A DNA stretch of 46,209 nucleotides from the NCBI GenBank assembly GCA_021161775.1, contig JAGGZY010000013.1, positions 1 to 46,209 on the forward strand. The letters run 5' to 3'. The notes below the pieces were generated by a model. The model was not told the origin of the DNA. It did no database searches and worked only from the letters and a program-made list of their open reading frames with translations. Position numbers and translations under genes: made by a program. This stretch comes from Dehalococcoidales bacterium (GTDB taxonomy: Bacteria > Chloroflexota > Dehalococcoidia > Dehalococcoidales > UBA5760). Numbering within the stretch: position 1 is the first letter of the stretch; every line of letters begins with the position of its first letter. This document shows positions 28,361 to 37,253 of this stretch, one piece after another.

Positions 28361-28451
28361 GGAGAGGTGTCCGAGAGGCTTAAGGTGCCGCTCTCGAAAA
28401 GCGGTCTCCGTATTTTGCGGAGCGTGGGTTCGAATCCCACCCTCTCCGCCA
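28361..28451 (+). tRNA. tRNA-Ser (CGA), CCA encoded
   Basis: GGAGAGGTGTCCGAGAGGCTTAAGG...CTCTCGAAAAG...GGGTTCGAATCCCACCCTCTCCGCCA; upstream TATAAT at 28342. Confidence 0.94.
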
Positions 28452-28458
28452 CAAAGGA
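28423..28458 (+). repeat. 36-bp perfect direct repeat, copy 1 (tRNA-Ser 3' end + 7 bp flank)
   Basis: CGTGGGTTCGAATCCCACCCTCTCCGCCACAAAGGA, identical to 29343..29378. Confidence 0.9.
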
Positions 28459-28465
28459 GATTAAA

Positions 28466-29197
28466 GTGGCTGAAAAATTTCAATTTACCGCAAAACTAGA
28501 CGAATGGGTTGACCGATGTTTTAGAGCTTTAACTCCAGGAGATGAAGAGTTTGAGAAAAAATTTCTCAAAGATACGGAGTGGCATGATGATGCTGCCAAA
28601 AGATTAAAAGAAAAGATATTCAATAGAATAGATGAATTGAAGCCAGAGGAATTTAAAAAATTAATCTGTGGCAAGAAGACTGAAAGAGCAATGATGCAAG
28701 TATATGAAAATCACAAAAGGGATATTTACAATGTGATAGACAATGATTTCCCCACAGTAAAAGGGTATCTTACATTCATAAGGGATTTTAATGGAAAGCC
28801 AGAGGGTATAGATAAGCTGTTACCTAACGGTAGCAAGTATATCAACGGTAGCAAGTATATCAAAGGAGCAGCAATATGCTTCGTGACGCAACTCCTCGCA
28901 GGAGCACATTTGAATAAATATGTTGTTTACCATGATAAGCTATATGAAGTACTACGAGATTCAGACATGTTAGTTAGACAAGATATCGACTATTTAAAAA
29001 ATAAAAAGAGCGGTGGAGAGCGTTATTTATGCGTGAATGACATTTGCAAACAGATGTATGACGAGAAGTTCAAGGAGAGGCTGGAGAGGATGGAGGCACC
29101 ACACAAATTCGGACTTCAGGTCGTTCACAATTTCTTATGGCACTACCATCATAAAGAAATCGAAGGCAAAGGAAAATGGTGGGATAAAGATTGCTGA
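28466..29197 (+). CDS. Accessory protein of unknown function (GTG start; listed ORF runs upstream through the tRNA)
   Basis: Intact AT-rich ORF MAEKFQFTAKLDEWVDRCFRALTPGDEEF...; AAAGGAG RBS upstream; no family recognised. Confidence 0.6.
   Translation: MAEKFQFTAKLDEWVDRCFRALTPGDEEFEKKFLKDTEWHDDAAKRLKEKIFNRIDELKPEEFKKLICGKKTERAMMQVYENHKRDIYNVIDNDFPTVKGYLTFIRDFNGKPEGIDKLLPNGSKYINGSKYIKGAAICFVTQLLAGAHLNKYVVYHDKLYEVLRDSDMLVRQDIDYLKNKKSGGERYLCVNDICKQMYDEKFKERLERMEAPHKFGLQVVHNFLWHYHHKEIEGKGKWWDKDC
28826..28861 (+). repeat. Tandem 2 x 18 bp repeat within CDS (NGSKYI-NGSKYI)
   Basis: aacggtagcaagtatatc occurs twice back to back. Confidence 0.9.
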
Positions 29198-29279
29198 AAT
29201 AAGTAACTTTTCAGATTGTTTTAGAAGCACCGATTTACGAAACTGTAAAGTATAATCTGATTTCTCGCTTACCAATTAT

Positions 29280-29378
<99 letters not shown>

Positions 29379-29409
29379 ATTCATATTCTATTAGGTAATT
29401 TACTCCCTT

Positions 29410-29443
29410 CTTTTGAGAATAACAGGCAAAGGAGACATCATGT
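29410..29443 (+). repeat. 34-bp direct repeat, copy 1 (leader, RBS and start codon)
   Basis: cttttgagaataacaggcaaaggagacatcatgt, identical to 29945..29978. Confidence 0.92.
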
Positions 29444-29928
29444 TAGATAAAGACGAAATTAAGAAAATGCTCAAGCTCTTCCAGAGTTCCCATATTGACC
29501 AAATTAGTGCACTCAAGGAAGATTCAGAGACAGTATTAGAACTAAGTGCGACATTAGAAAAGAGCATCCACAGACTTGAGTCGGAGAAAGACCAAATCGA
29601 CGAAACAATACTAAAATACGCTGAGATGCTCCTACGTGCGCTGGACGAAATTAAAACGTCCAGATTAGAAGAGATAAGGGTGCGATCATTGACAGAGATA
29701 AACCGCCGATGTTGGTCCCTCTCCATAGGAAGAATGATAAATATTATCTTTGAAAAGGATGAACAGAAGCAACTAAATTTCCTTAACCAACTGCTAAACT
29801 TGGTCAAGCTTTCTGATGATTCTTCCCAACAGATTGGAGAGGCTACGGGGGCTGAACAACTAGTTTCTTCTTTCAAGCAATTTACTGATAAGTCCGACGC
29901 TATACAAGACGAATTTTTGAAGGCTTGA
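29440..29928 (+). CDS. Helical/coiled-coil protein of unknown function
   Basis: ATG at 29440 preceded by aaaggag; MLDKDEIKKMLKLFQSSHIDQISALKEDSETVLELSATLEKSIHRLESEKDQ...; no recognised family. Confidence 0.6.
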   Translation: MLDKDEIKKMLKLFQSSHIDQISALKEDSETVLELSATLEKSIHRLESEKDQIDETILKYAEMLLRALDEIKTSRLEEIRVRSLTEINRRCWSLSIGRMINIIFEKDEQKQLNFLNQLLNLVKLSDDSSQQIGEATGAEQLVSSFKQFTDKSDAIQDEFLKA

Positions 29929-31293: not shown

Positions 31294-33378
31294 ATGACAA
31301 CAAATCTGGTTATTGTAGAATCACCCGCCAAGGCAAGAACGCTAAGCAGGATACTGGGTCAGGATTATAATCTTATGGCTTCAATGGGTCACATCAGAGA
31401 CCTGCCCAAGGGTACCCTGGGGGTAGATGTGGAACATAATTTTTCCCCCAAATATGTAATCCCCCGAGATAAAGCCAAGGTGGTTAGGGAACTTAAACAG
31501 GCTGCCAGAGCGGCGCCGATGGTATATCTGGCTACTGACCCTGACCGTGAAGGGGAGGCTATTGCCTGGCATCTGGCTGAAGTAATCCGAGTAAACAAGG
31601 CTAATTATCATCGGGTTACCTTCCATGAGATAACCGAGCCTGCTATCAAGCTCGCCTTCAAGCAATCTCGCTCCATAGACATGAAACTGGTCAATGCCCA
31701 GCAAGCCCGACGGATTATGGACCGACTGGTGGGTTATAAGATTAGCCCCCTCCTGTGGCGAAAGGTGAGGCGGGGGCTTTCCGCCGGCCGGGTTCAATCA
31801 GTAGCCCTAAAGATTATTGCCGAACGACAGCGGGAGATTGATAAATTCACCCCTGAGGAATACTGGAGTATCGAGGCTAAGCTAACTAAAGAAACCCCGA
31901 CAGCCAGCTTTCAAGCCAAACTCATTAGCCTGGTCGGCGACCCCAAGCTAGTTATTCACAATCAGGCAGAAGCCACCGAGACCAGCGATGAGCTTAAAAC
32001 AGCCAGCTATAAGGTAGCCAAGGTAAAAATCAAGAAGGTAACCCGACAGCCAGCGCCACCGTTTATTACCAGCACCCTCCAGCAGGAAGCCTGGCGTAAG
32101 CTCCACTTCAGCGCCAAGCAGACGATGGCTATTGCTCAACAGCTCTTTGAGGGCTTACCCCTCGGCGACGAGGGCAGTGAGGGGCTAATTACCTATATGC
32201 GGACCGATTCTACCCGGGTGGCTCGCCCGGCTATTGTGGAAACTAGGGAGTTTATCACCGAGCGGTATGGTGCCGAGTTCATTCCCCCCCACGCCCGCAC
32301 CTTCTCCAGAACAGTCAAGGGAGCACAGGAAGCCCACGAAGCCATCCGTCCCACCCATATCTACCATGAGCCATCGCTGATTAAGCAATACCTCAATACC
32401 AATCAATTTCGGCTCTATCAGCTTATCTGGCAACGGATGGTCGCTAGCCAGATGGCGGCGGCGGTATTTAACAGCACCAGCGTTGATATTACGGCTAAAT
32501 GCCTCTCTAAGAATAGATACCTGTTTCGCGCCACAAGCTCTGTCCCTCTCTTCCGGGGATTTATGGCTCTCTATACCGAGGGCAAGGATGAGGCTGAAGA
32601 AAAGCCAGGCTCAGTACTTCCCCCGCTGGAAAAGGATGATGAGCTTAAACTGCTGGGGCTTTCCTCGGAGCAACACTTTACCCAACCCCCACCCCGGTTC
32701 ACCGAAGCCACCCTGATTAAAACCCTGGAGCAACGGGGTATTGGTCGCCCCAGTACCTACGCTACCATTCTATCTACCCTTCAGGGGCGGGAATATGTTA
32801 CCAAGGTTAAGGGTAGCTTTCAGCCCACCGAACTGGGAATGATAGTTAACGACCTGCTCGCTCCCTACTTTTCCGACATTATTAATGTTGACTTTACCGC
32901 TCATATGGAGGATGAACTGGACAATATCGCCAGTAACCAGCGGAATTGGGTGGAGGTGGTTCAGGATTTCTATACCCCCTTTGAGAAAAGTCTAAATCAC
33001 GCCACCGAACATATGGATAAGGTAAAACCGCCCGACGAGGTAACCGATGAGGTCTGTCCTAAATGTGGTAAGCCGTTGGTTATCAAGGTAGGCCGCTACG
33101 GAAAGTTTTTTGCCTGTAGTGGTTACCCGGAGTGTAAATACACCGCCTCTTACCAGATTAAGACGGGGGTTAAATGCCCGAAGTGCGGTGGGGAATTGGT
33201 CAAACGGAGAAGCAAAAAGGGTCGCATCTTCTACGGGTGTAGTAACTACCCGGAGTGTAAATTCGTTACCAACCTGAAGCCCCTCCCTCAACCCTGCCCC
33301 AAGTGCGGAGGACTGCTCACCGAATACCGCGGAAACCAGACAAAATGCTCAAGCTGCGACTATCAAGGGAAGCTTTAG
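31294..33378 (+). CDS. topA: DNA topoisomerase I, type IA, with C-terminal zinc fingers
   Basis: LVIVESPAKARTLSRILG, YLATDPDREGEAIAWHL, GLITYMRTDSTR, three CPKCG zinc-finger modules. Confidence 0.96.
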   Translation: MTTNLVIVESPAKARTLSRILGQDYNLMASMGHIRDLPKGTLGVDVEHNFSPKYVIPRDKAKVVRELKQAARAAPMVYLATDPDREGEAIAWHLAEVIRVNKANYHRVTFHEITEPAIKLAFKQSRSIDMKLVNAQQARRIMDRLVGYKISPLLWRKVRRGLSAGRVQSVALKIIAERQREIDKFTPEEYWSIEAKLTKETPTASFQAKLISLVGDPKLVIHNQAEATETSDELKTASYKVAKVKIKKVTRQPAPPFITSTLQQEAWRKLHFSAKQTMAIAQQLFEGLPLGDEGSEGLITYMRTDSTRVARPAIVETREFITERYGAEFIPPHARTFSRTVKGAQEAHEAIRPTHIYHEPSLIKQYLNTNQFRLYQLIWQRMVASQMAAAVFNSTSVDITAKCLSKNRYLFRATSSVPLFRGFMALYTEGKDEAEEKPGSVLPPLEKDDELKLLGLSSEQHFTQPPPRFTEATLIKTLEQRGIGRPSTYATILSTLQGREYVTKVKGSFQPTELGMIVNDLLAPYFSDIINVDFTAHMEDELDNIASNQRNWVEVVQDFYTPFEKSLNHATEHMDKVKPPDEVTDEVCPKCGKPLVIKVGRYGKFFACSGYPECKYTASYQIKTGVKCPKCGGELVKRRSKKGRIFYGCSNYPECKFVTNLKPLPQPCPKCGGLLTEYRGNQTKCSSCDYQGKL

Positions 33379-33515: not shown

Positions 33516-33544
33516 TTGACATCCTAAAAATAGTGTGTTATTAT
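33516..33544 (+). promoter_or_regulatory. Sigma70-type promoter: TTGACA, 17-bp spacer, TATTAT
   Basis: ttgaca 33516..33521, spacer 33522..33538, tattat 33539..33544, upstream of the cassette's first gene. Confidence 0.75.
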
Positions 33545-33581
33545 CTCAGTTAGAAATAGATATTTGGTGGAGGAGCTTTAA

Positions 33582-33809
33582 ATGACAAAGCTGAATAATG
33601 AGACACCGGAAGAGCGATTCAAAAGGATTGCTGAATTAAGGACTAACGCTGTTCTAGACAGGCTCAGGATATTAGGTAATTTATCCAACCGGCAAATGTA
33701 TAGCTACTCCGAAGAAGACATTGATAAAATCTTCTCGGCTATAACTAAACAGATTAAAGAAGTCAGAGCAAAATTCAACTCTCGGAAAGGAGAAAGGTTT
33801 AAACTATGA
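33582..33809 (+). CDS. Small conserved-looking protein (75 aa), first gene of accessory cassette
   Basis: Preceded by gtggaggag RBS; MTKLNNETPEERFKRIAELRTNAVLDRLRILGNLSNRQMYSYSEEDIDKIFSAITKQIKEVRAKF; overlaps next ORF. Confidence 0.75.
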   Translation: MTKLNNETPEERFKRIAELRTNAVLDRLRILGNLSNRQMYSYSEEDIDKIFSAITKQIKEVRAKFNSRKGERFKL

Positions 33810-33823
33810 AAATGGGAGGCAAA

Positions 33824-35638
33824 ATGAAGAAGAGAGAGGTAAATTTAGGACGCACCGATGAAAATATTGCTGACCAATATCCTATTCCTCATCTTTGTGA
33901 GGCTCTCCAAAAGGATGCGGGACAGAACTCATGGGATGCGAGGGCAACTAAAAAAGGAAAAGCCTGGAAATCGGTGTTTAGGTATATTCCCCAATTAAAT
34001 AGCCTAACCATAGAGGACTTTGGAACCCTCGGAATGAATGCAAAGAGATGGAAAGAGTACCAAAGCTTGTGGGACACAGCCAAAGCTGAAAAACCAACAT
34101 TAGGAGCGCGTGGTCAAGGAAAGTTCTTATTTCATTACTATGCTAAAAATAAGCTTGTTCTGACTGAAAGTATTGACGAGGAGAAAAATTATCGTTTCTC
34201 GTTTGGCACTAGTGAAGAATATGATGATGAAAACAAAAAACTAGAGGATTTTATTCCCAATGCAAAACCGCTAGACCACCAAGGAACACGTATCTGGATT
34301 ATGGATTTAAAACAAGAACTCAGGGATGAACTACTCGACTCAAAGCGTTTTATGAATTATATCGCAGCAACTTGGTGGGAAATTATTAGGAACTGGAATG
34401 CTACCTTTATTGTTAACTTCGACGGCACTGACCACAAAGTAATGCTTCCTGAATTACCGGTTGCCGAAAAAGAAAGAGTATTCCCTAACGAAAAGATTAG
34501 TGACTTGGGTAAAGTAAAGAAGTTCGTACTACGTTATTGTAAAGACGAAGTACCCGAACTTCTTCGAGGTATAGCGGTGCAAAGAGGGGGAATGACAATA
34601 CTTAGGCTCCCTGTTTCCGCTGAGGAAACGATTAAAAATAAGATTTACGGATATTGTACTTTTGACGAAGATTTAGAAGAGCAATTAAAGGAGGTGGAAC
34701 TTCCAAATCACTTTGGTTTTAGCCCCAAAAAAGCTTGGAACCACGCCAGAGAGTATATAAGAAGGAAATCAGATGGGTTTGCTCAAGAGATTAGCCCAGT
34801 AAGGAAGAGAGAGATAACCCTACCCCAAGATTTGATAACAAGAGCAGTCCTCATCGTTAACAATCTAGTTAGAGAATACGCCCCGGAACTAGCTGCCGAG
34901 GTAACTGGCCCTGGCGGGGGTAAAAAGCCTGTTGAAAACCCGTACGGGAAAAGACCTCTATCGGATATAAGAATTGACACCTTTAGGGGTAATGCTAGGA
35001 AATTGGAATATGACGAATCACTTATAACAGAGTGCGAGCTTGTTAATGATACTGATAACGCCGCAAAACTACAGCTAAAGATAGAGGTTAGGCATGAAGA
35101 AGGTGACTTGAAGTTTAACCCGAGATATACAATCGTCCTTGATGGCAATAAGAGAGAAAGGATTGATATACCACTTGTTGACTTCCAAGAAAATATTGAC
35201 AAGCCCGGAGAATATAAGGCGACTGCTGTTTTAGAAAATGTAGAAGAAACAGAACCTCACACACGCTCATTTACCTTTTATTTGCATGAAGAGCCTCCGC
35301 CTTCAAGAGGAAGGGTATTCCTAAGCACCATGAGGTTTTTGTATGGCAAAGGTAAACCTTTTGAGAGAAGCAAGCAGTTACCATTAACAGATAAAGCGGT
35401 TCTCTACATTATTTTTGACCACCCTGATTTTGCACATGTGAGGGAGGCAGCAGGCTCCAAGAAAGCCCGGAAAGAAGAGATATTTCTTTACTCGATTAAG
35501 TGCGGTATAGATGAAGCTATACAGAAGTTGCTTGAATTTAGGTATAATGAAGGTCAGTTAGATACAGATGAGATACGGGTAATTAAAGATAAGTGCGATG
35601 CAATGTATTATGACGCAGTATCAAGTCCCATGGCATAA
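33824..35638 (+). CDS. GHKL (Hsp90/MutL/MORC-like) ATPase with C-terminal extension
   Basis: N-box-like DAGQNSWDA, D-x-G-x-x-G-M-like EDFGTLGM, G2-like GARGQGKF, HQGTRIWI; probable start MKKREVN at 33824 with gggaggc RBS (ORF starts 33806). Confidence 0.75.
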   Translation: MKKREVNLGRTDENIADQYPIPHLCEALQKDAGQNSWDARATKKGKAWKSVFRYIPQLNSLTIEDFGTLGMNAKRWKEYQSLWDTAKAEKPTLGARGQGKFLFHYYAKNKLVLTESIDEEKNYRFSFGTSEEYDDENKKLEDFIPNAKPLDHQGTRIWIMDLKQELRDELLDSKRFMNYIAATWWEIIRNWNATFIVNFDGTDHKVMLPELPVAEKERVFPNEKISDLGKVKKFVLRYCKDEVPELLRGIAVQRGGMTILRLPVSAEETIKNKIYGYCTFDEDLEEQLKEVELPNHFGFSPKKAWNHAREYIRRKSDGFAQEISPVRKREITLPQDLITRAVLIVNNLVREYAPELAAEVTGPGGGKKPVENPYGKRPLSDIRIDTFRGNARKLEYDESLITECELVNDTDNAAKLQLKIEVRHEEGDLKFNPRYTIVLDGNKRERIDIPLVDFQENIDKPGEYKATAVLENVEETEPHTRSFTFYLHEEPPPSRGRVFLSTMRFLYGKGKPFERSKQLPLTDKAVLYIIFDHPDFAHVREAAGSKKARKEEIFLYSIKCGIDEAIQKLLEFRYNEGQLDTDEIRVIKDKCDAMYYDAVSSPMA

Positions 35639-35670
35639 CCCAAGAAAAATTGACAAAGGAATTTACGATT

Positions 35671-36246
35671 ATGGCAAAGAGGAAAAGGGAGAGCATAGTA
35701 AGAAGAGATACAATCCAGTGGGGCGGAAAGGACATAGAAGTTGATATATTTGATGCGAAGGTCATCCTAGGCAGTGGCGAAGAACTCGAAAGCATTGAGG
35801 AGTTGTTAATAGAAGAAGAAATAGAGAAGGCAGTCCAAGCTGGACTAAAACAGATAGACACCATTGCACAAAGATATCCCGATAAAGTGGAAAATATATG
35901 GTACTGCTATGAAGTAGGCAAAATACTTCAGTTTGTAGATACCAAGGGATTTACTGACAGGAAAGGACTTATCTGGCGCAGAATGGCATATGACCTTCGC
36001 CCAGACTTGTTTGGGGGCAAAAAGAAAAATCCTGAAGAGGCAAAAAGATACCCTGAGACCATGTATCATCTTGGCAAGCAGCCTCAAAAAGCCATTAAGA
36101 GAGCTTCTTTTGATCAGTGGTATGAAATACTAAAGTTTAAGGATGTTTATAAAGATAGAGACCTACTTGAACAGGTTCTTAATGTATGTGAACAGGGACT
36201 ATCTAGCGTTCAGTTACGTCAAAAAATTAAAGACCTCAGAGGGTAG
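35671..36246 (+). CDS. Accessory protein of unknown function, predicted helical; third cassette gene
   Basis: ATG 35671; ENIWYCYEVGKILQFVDTKGFTDRKGLIWRRMAYDLRPDLFGGKKKNPEEAKRYPETMYHLGKQPQKAIKRASFDQWYEILKF. Confidence 0.65.
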   Translation: MAKRKRESIVRRDTIQWGGKDIEVDIFDAKVILGSGEELESIEELLIEEEIEKAVQAGLKQIDTIAQRYPDKVENIWYCYEVGKILQFVDTKGFTDRKGLIWRRMAYDLRPDLFGGKKKNPEEAKRYPETMYHLGKQPQKAIKRASFDQWYEILKFKDVYKDRDLLEQVLNVCEQGLSSVQLRQKIKDLRG

Positions 36247-36338: not shown

Positions 36339-37253
36339 GTGCAAGAGGTATTTAACCGATATATAAATTACCTGGAGGCAGAGCGAAACGCCTCACGCTA
36401 CACGGTGCGTAACTATACCCACGACCTGATGAACTTTTTTAGCTTTCTTAATGGCGAGGGGATTAGTTCACTAAATGAGGTAGACCGGCTTATCATTCGG
36501 GATTACCTCGCCTACCTGCTGGATGAGGGACTGGTTAAAGCCAGCATTGCCCGCAAATTATCGGCGATTCGTTCCTTCTACCGCTACCTGCTGAGGGAGA
36601 AGATAGTTTCCGTAAGCCCCGTCGCCAATACCTCATCCCCCAAACTGGACAAGCGATTGCCTATCTTTCTTACCCTGGATGAAGTGATGCGACTTCTGGA
36701 AGCCCCCGATTTAACTACCCCTCAGGGGCAGCGCGACCGGGCTCTACTTGAGCTACTCTACGCCTCCGGGCTCAGGGTAAGTGAGCTGGTCGGACTAAAT
36801 ATAGCTGGGGTTAATCTGAAGGATAAGGAGATACGGGTGCTGGGCAAAGGGGCTAAGGAACGGCTGGTGCTGATAGGGAACCCTGCTGCTATGGCGTTAA
36901 GGACCTATCTTAATCAGGGAAGGCTCAAGCTACTCGGTGAAAAAATTACCCCGGCCCTATTTATTAGCCGTGATGGGAAACGCCTCATCGCCCGCCGAGT
37001 AGAGAAGCTGGTGGGAAAATACCGCCGCCTAGCCGGTATCACCAAACGGGTTCACCCTCACACCCTGCGTCACACCTTTGCCACTCATCTCCTTGATGGC
37101 GGGGCTGATTTAAGGGTGGTGCAAGAGCTTTTAGGACACGCCAATCTAGCCTCCACCCAGATTTATACCCATGTTACCAAAACCCGAGCCCGAAAAGTCT
37201 ACCTCTCCGCTCACCCGATGGCTCAGGAGAAGACTAATGAACCTCAGGAATAG
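36339..37253 (+). CDS. Tyrosine recombinase XerC/XerD-like (GTG start)
   Basis: N-terminal SAM-like domain, LLYASGLRVSELVGL, HPHTLRHTFATHLLDGGADLRVVQELLGHANLASTQIYTHVT. Confidence 0.92.
   Translation: MQEVFNRYINYLEAERNASRYTVRNYTHDLMNFFSFLNGEGISSLNEVDRLIIRDYLAYLLDEGLVKASIARKLSAIRSFYRYLLREKIVSVSPVANTSSPKLDKRLPIFLTLDEVMRLLEAPDLTTPQGQRDRALLELLYASGLRVSELVGLNIAGVNLKDKEIRVLGKGAKERLVLIGNPAAMALRTYLNQGRLKLLGEKITPALFISRDGKRLIARRVEKLVGKYRRLAGITKRVHPHTLRHTFATHLLDGGADLRVVQELLGHANLASTQIYTHVTKTRARKVYLSAHPMAQEKTNEPQE

Follow-up and report, generated by a model that had tools for sequence, protein, structure and literature searches.

MORC-like GHKL ATPases associated with restriction-modification (R-M) were predicted in 2008. 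In the scheme of Iyer, Abhiman and Aravind (2008), the paraMORC2 group joins a GHKL domain to an S5 domain and has an ExxxH motif in the C-terminal part of S5 (PMC2292703); the text of that paper makes no mention of a glycosylase. MORC2 itself is a GHKL ATPase that acts as a DNA clamp (PMC12216690).

The locus compared here with these proteins is a trio of genes, P1, P2 and P3 (75, 604-610 and 191 aa), which lie on the same strand between topA and a Xer recombinase gene in a 46,209-nucleotide stretch from a Dehalococcoidales bacterium (contig JAGGZY010000013.1), the whole of which is referred to as the window. The trio is a variant, with no methylase detected, of an R-M-linked family. Our preferred reading, to which we give a probability of about 0.55, is that it is a horizontally moving module of the paraMORC kind, R-M-related and directed against invaders, in which P2 would serve as a DNA clamp together with P3 and an adaptor, P1. 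The features of the locus are as follows.

31294..33378, + strand: topA, the upstream border of an insertion-prone junction (open reading frame, junction comparison)
33516..33544, + strand: sigma-70-type promoter TTGACA-17-TATTAT with an extended -10 (TG), an 11/12 consensus match on sequence reading, the total of promoter-like sites being equal to the shuffled expectation
33582..33809, + strand: P1, 75 aa, of a small family usually adjoining GHKL-type genes (open reading frame, family context)
33806..35638, + strand: P2, a paraMORC-like GHKL-S5 ATPase with beta-rich and helical C-terminal domains (motifs, AlphaFold, Foldseek)
33914..33940, + strand: N-box of P2, D37-A45 (DAGQNSWDA), ATP/Mg site (Q40, N41 and A45 invariant in 31 homologues; D37 90%)
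34016..34033, + strand: G1 box of P2, D71-G76 (DFGTLG; D71 and G76 invariant in 31 homologues)
34103..34123, + strand: G2 box of P2, G100-K106 (GARGQGK; G100, G103, G105 and K106 invariant in 31 homologues)
34697..34711, + strand: ExxxH of P2, E298-H302, at the C-terminal end of the S5 domain, a paraMORC2-type signature (alignment)
35671..36246, + strand: P3, 191 aa from the ATG at 35671, mostly helical (open reading frame, model)
36339..37253, + strand: Xer-type tyrosine recombinase, the downstream border (open reading frame, homologue search)

The end of P1 overlaps the start codon of P2 (ATGA), which gives a P2 of 610 aa from the ATG at 33806; from the ATG at 33824, equivalent to the start used by P2 in the related loci L040-L042, the protein has the 604 aa of the initial annotation of this DNA. 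The three open reading frames, the AT-rich block that holds them and the near-consensus promoter are all present as that annotation described, and the flanks, dprA-topA upstream and xer-pepP-efp downstream, are as it stated. The GC content of the cassette is 0.403 against 0.496 in the rest of the window, a contrast that is repeated in six other Dehalococcoidia copies (0.40-0.45 inside, 0.48-0.60 outside), and the neighbourhood is one of housekeeping genes, without a defence island. Each of the three reading frames is preserved in independent genomes, and dN falls well short of dS wherever dS could be estimated; the trio as a set of genes is therefore above chance. A second AT-rich block lies just before dprA (window 28361-29928) and contains two tRNA-Ser genes and two open reading frames (28457-29197 and 29413-29928), neither of which has a convincing Pfam match.

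By motif and by modelled fold, P2 is a member of the GHKL ATPase superfamily. The GHKL motifs noted in the initial annotation are real and are conserved across the 31 homologues, in which G73, G160 and R162 are further conserved residues; H302 is found in all 31, accompanied by E298 in 28. As a single sequence P2 matches only HATPase_c_3 in Pfam, weakly (E 0.025). Its AlphaFold model (pLDDT 78.8), searched with Foldseek, matches Hsp90/TRAP1 (E 5e-11 to 3e-10) and MORC3 (5e-7) over ~400 columns, a span which indicates GHKL plus S5. Such a fold search had been proposed at the outset for all three proteins, and it supports the GHKL assignment of P2 through Hsp90, TRAP1 and MORC3 while finding no known fold for P3 or P1. 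Beyond S5 the model has a beta-rich domain followed by C-terminal helices, and in this region only eight columns of the 31-homologue alignment reach 80% conservation, such that there is no hint of a nuclease site in P2. Indeed, no nuclease family was matched by the trio proteins in searches of family libraries, nor was a PD-(D/E)XK nuclease domain (DUF4263) detected in P2 by Pfam or in the alignment of 31 homologues. The trio itself encodes no recognisable methylase or nuclease, in agreement with what had been said of it from the sequence.

Nothing useful came from P2 as a single query sequence against plasmids, phages, viral contigs and solved structures, from the GHKL protein of locus L018 against plasmids and phages, or from the GHKL alignment against viral contigs; phrog_6203 matches P2 weakly, which is consistent with distant viral GHKL proteins. 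The PADLOC entry PDC-M33 was considered and rejected, the window having no match and distant members of the family matching PDC-M33A over ~30-45 residues around the N-box only.

P3 is mostly helical in its model (pLDDT 80.5), with no match among solved folds in a model-based search and none known by sequence; assignments to CARF/HEPN, Cas8e or DUF6782 were rejected, the matches being weak and partial. Gly, Leu and Trp are the residues best conserved in P3, whose alignment has no strongly conserved catalytic-type residue; judged on this basis, the protein does not look enzymatic. It follows P2 in most of 35 loci, and occurs in exactly six of 294 genomes of the class, all six of which also carry the P2 family.

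When 84,980 species genomes were scanned with the P2 alignment, in a search that rests on two short patterns and so gives a lower bound, at least 35 P2-family loci were found, in Chloroflexota, Atribacterota, Ignavibacteriota, Gammaproteobacteria, Asgard and DPANN archaea, and others. Of about 38 loci, 17 have a C5 methylase (family HMM) within their flanks and 12 have an HhH glycosylase there. Pfam confirms the methylase at L010 (E 5e-54), where the best solved match of the glycosylase, over nearly its whole length, is 1kea, a G-T mismatch enzyme (E 6e-48). This structure we take to be MIG.Mth, the enzyme that accompanies the MthTI R-M system. Vsr replaces the glycosylase in L032 and L044 (Pfam) and a related gene is found in L021 and L033; a MIG-type glycosylase or Vsr adjoins the methylase in most methylase-linked relatives. 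The exchange of two unrelated T:G repair enzymes next to a C5 methylase gives good grounds for concluding that the methylase-linked loci really make 5-methylcytosine (5mC). Since its relatives form part of a recurrent locus that also holds a C5 methylase and an enzyme of T:G repair, the trio is placed with the R-M-associated paraMORC ATPases of 2008 (PMC2292703). The earlier description of the trio as undescribed is thus right as regards its name, there being none in Pfam, NCBIfam or PADLOC (the last as had been expected), and goes too far as regards its kinship. Among the neighbours at L019, L022, L025, L031 and L037, some look, by reading, like toxin-antitoxin genes of the MNT-HEPN or AbrB-PIN kind, and Pfam confirms a Schlafen AlbA_2 gene (L022) and an NOV_C gene (L037). 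At L013 (7790-9843) another GHKL gene (HATPase_c_3, E 7e-12) and a 156-aa gene lie between what read as recR and recO.

A search for methylases of the C5 type detected none in the assembled genome of the window (98.9% complete), nor any in those of L040, L041 and L042, which are MAGs of unstated completeness, making the absence provisional. The R-M partnership is therefore not general. Three other trio carriers (G268, L039 and L046) have a C5 methylase elsewhere in the genome. On the tree the methylase label needs three changes, and the clade of the window comprises one linked member (L043) and six without; methylase-less loci are found also in Gammaproteobacteria and Asgard archaea, as separate lineages. 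Given methylase-less members in several lineages, the P2-P3 core can be maintained without a linked methylase. These findings bear directly on an alternative in which the family serves 5mC maintenance, a MutL-like P2-P3 pair coordinating T:G repair after deamination of 5mC, with MIG or Vsr as its partner. Both the GHKL-S5 architecture and the presence of one or other repair enzyme beside the methylase in most methylase-linked relatives are in keeping with it, but it is the methylase, and not the trio, that the glycosylase or Vsr accompanies, and the trio is under purifying selection in genomes without a detected C5 methylase, which together make this explanation unlikely.

The anti-invader reading assigns to P1 the part of an adaptor, and the family of this protein is wider than the trio. 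No known fold or sequence match was found for P1, a resemblance to influenza haemagglutinin HA2 being rejected as a short helix match. Profiles of P1 find three more genomes of the Dehalococcoidia class, without P2 or P3, in which it stands upstream of another GHKL-like gene (with one gene between in L125). On plasmids it precedes a GHKL-like gene in Deinococcus, where the ATPase is read in two frames, Planococcus, Priestia, Arthrobacter, Paenarthrobacter, Ensifer, Agrobacterium, Dinoroseobacter and Rhizobium, and several of these plasmid loci adjoin dcm, vsr, type II nucleases or Shedu. In an alignment of 36 P1 sequences R20, Y40 and F73 are invariant; a GHKL or GHKL-like gene is adjacent or one gene away in 28 of the 36 and absent in seven, the contig of the remaining one ending too soon for its neighbour to be judged. 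Of the ATPases other than P2 that adjoin P1, homology to P2 is found for the DUF6339-linked plasmid group only (98%, E 2.5e-13, profile comparison); one is HtpG-like by sequence, and nine are GHKL by motif reading only, two of them unconfirmed as GHKL in a sequence search of solved structures. The DUF6339-linked cassette, in which P1, the GHKL gene, a gene of about 285 aa and DUF6339 follow one another, is seen in L128, L129, L130 and L132, where it adjoins dcm, vsr, type II nucleases or Shedu; DUF6339 has no mention in the literature searched. In the distant branch of L045, L048 and L049 another small gene takes the place of P1 before the GHKL gene, that of L048 having a HARE-HTH match in Pfam (E 7e-8).

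The seven P1 sequences without a GHKL neighbour include six from viral contigs. Solitary homologues at L145 (4983-5228), L146 (4800-5216), L149 (4908-5210) and L150 (4959-5240) score 51-61 bits with the P1 profile, and no GHKL gene was recognised near them; one neighbour in L145 looks, by reading, like a terminase gene. The solitary viral homologues are possibly decoys or phage regulators. A broader proposal, that P1 is a general partner of several types of GHKL ATPase in mobile DNA-conflict loci, on chromosomes as well as plasmids, and that its solitary phage copies may be decoys directed at these ATPases, we regard as doubtful.

The position of P1 also invites an explanation by abortive infection or toxin-antitoxin action, in which the ATPase or P3 would be toxic and P1 the antidote: P1 is small, comes first in the operon, overlaps the start codon of the GHKL gene and has solitary homologues in viral contigs. 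P1 is not seen, however, in several GHKL-P3 loci (among them L010 and L019-L021), such that it is not an essential antidote, and the lack of a strongly conserved catalytic-type residue in P3 also speaks against a toxin; this explanation is accordingly improbable.

As shown by comparison of its copies, the trio moves horizontally and is under purifying selection. P2 is absent from all 100 relatives searched, including eight of the same genus, and in most readable relatives topA and xer are separated by 11-72 bases, the others enclosing unrelated genes; the junction, being empty or variously loaded, is therefore insertion-prone. The reading of the trio as inserted and accessory, made in the initial annotation, is borne out. 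The contrary case that it had raised, synteny with topA in all relatives, is not found, yet one other genome (L041) does have the trio at this place. Differing single-gene cargos are seen between topA and xer in G002, G003, G007, G008, G013 and G036 (L051, L052, L054-L056 and L058), that of G036 being a REase-ARP nuclease (PF22558, E 1.2e-51). The trio recurs in other Dehalococcoidia with P2 identities of 70-88%, at the same junction in L041 and elsewhere or on short contigs in L009, L039, L040, L042 and L046. Between the window and L041, dS is 0.38 for P2, 1.1-1.4 for P1 and P3 and 1.7-3.6 for the flanking genes, the larger values being near saturation; with dS so far below that of its surroundings, P2 was exchanged after the two genomes diverged. 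Similarity between copies stops close to the outer genes, and a repeat search around the cassette found no terminal or direct repeats resembling element ends. The Xer recombinase was considered as the integrase of the cassette and rejected, since homologues are found in all 61 genomes searched, which makes xer most likely a host gene.

That the trio is instead the remnant of a decaying R-M locus, its methylase and nuclease lost, is quite improbable. The methylase-linked L043 does group with the window clade, and in G268 a frameshift divides the GHKL gene (L009, 8494-8512), which may be decay or assembly error, but the three frames are intact in the window, L040, L041 and L042, dN is well below dS, and the methylase-less lineages of Gammaproteobacteria and Asgard archaea are separate. 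A chromosome-organisation or topoisomerase-linked housekeeping operon, as the topA-xer position shared by the window and L041 might suggest, is highly improbable and largely refuted by distribution, since the 100 relatives lack the trio, their junction is empty or holds other cargo, and other copies lie at unrelated sites (for example L009 and L042).

The preferred reading of a clamp-based, anti-invader module builds on an established ATPase fold with intact ATP-binding motifs, a constant P2-P3 pair, mobility, purifying selection and the methylase and repair context of relatives; from this context, the trio is probably a DNA-targeting defence module. By analogy with MORC2, ATP binding would close a P2 dimer around DNA. 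P3 and P1 might choose or license the target, roles that are guesses because neither has a known fold or sequence match. The closed clamp would then silence, compact or stall foreign DNA, or pass it to a host nuclease, silencing or stalling being favoured over cutting since the trio is without a recognisable nuclease. Where a methylase is linked, 5mC would be the mark of self; with no methylase detected, the window form would need another cue for self and non-self or would act only when triggered.

With three genes and no recognisable helicase, nuclease or methylase, the trio is compact enough to transfer and test. The P1 family, in turn, offers a sequence handle on ATPase loci missed by current libraries, and its solitary viral copies suggest possible counter-defence.

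Several known systems share part of this organisation. VcSduA (GHKL-Shedu) is a defence protein whose N-terminal part is likewise a GHKL ATPase, but it carries its own PD-(D/E)XK nuclease (DUF4263), a domain that P2 appears to lack (PMC12137116). HEF_HK/Response_reg_2 likewise ties a GHKL-type protein to a C5 methylase, Vsr and type II R-M (PMC8011034), whereas neither PF19191 nor PF19192 is matched by P2 in Pfam up to E 1. The MIG.Mth-type glycosylase (1kea) resembles that linked to L010 and is absent from the window cassette. The trio does not qualify as a type II R-M system itself, since the genome has no detected C5 methylase and the trio no match to a nuclease family. With MORC the GHKL-S5 fold is shared, and MORC3 is among the solved-structure matches to P2, but the MORC S5 motif GhXhhpXXRhl occurs in none of 31 members of the P2 family. 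The paraMORC2 signature, in contrast, is present in 28 of the 31 and, by this published signature, P2 is likely a paraMORC2 member. The likeness extends to GHKL-S5 with ExxxH, a sporadic distribution in bacteria and archaea and neighbouring cytosine methylase and Vsr genes (PMC2292703); operon neighbours of the paraMORC2 type (methylase, Vsr or nuclease) are found in many relatives, the window being without them. Unlike paraMORC2, P2 loci have no constant helicase or restriction-fold nuclease neighbour (PMC2292703), and the window has no methylase. As far as searched, the compact form, the P3 partner, the exchange of MIG for Vsr and the P1 family are undescribed and named by no family library; what sets P2 loci apart from paraMORC2 is a constant P3, often a P1, and a MIG-type glycosylase.
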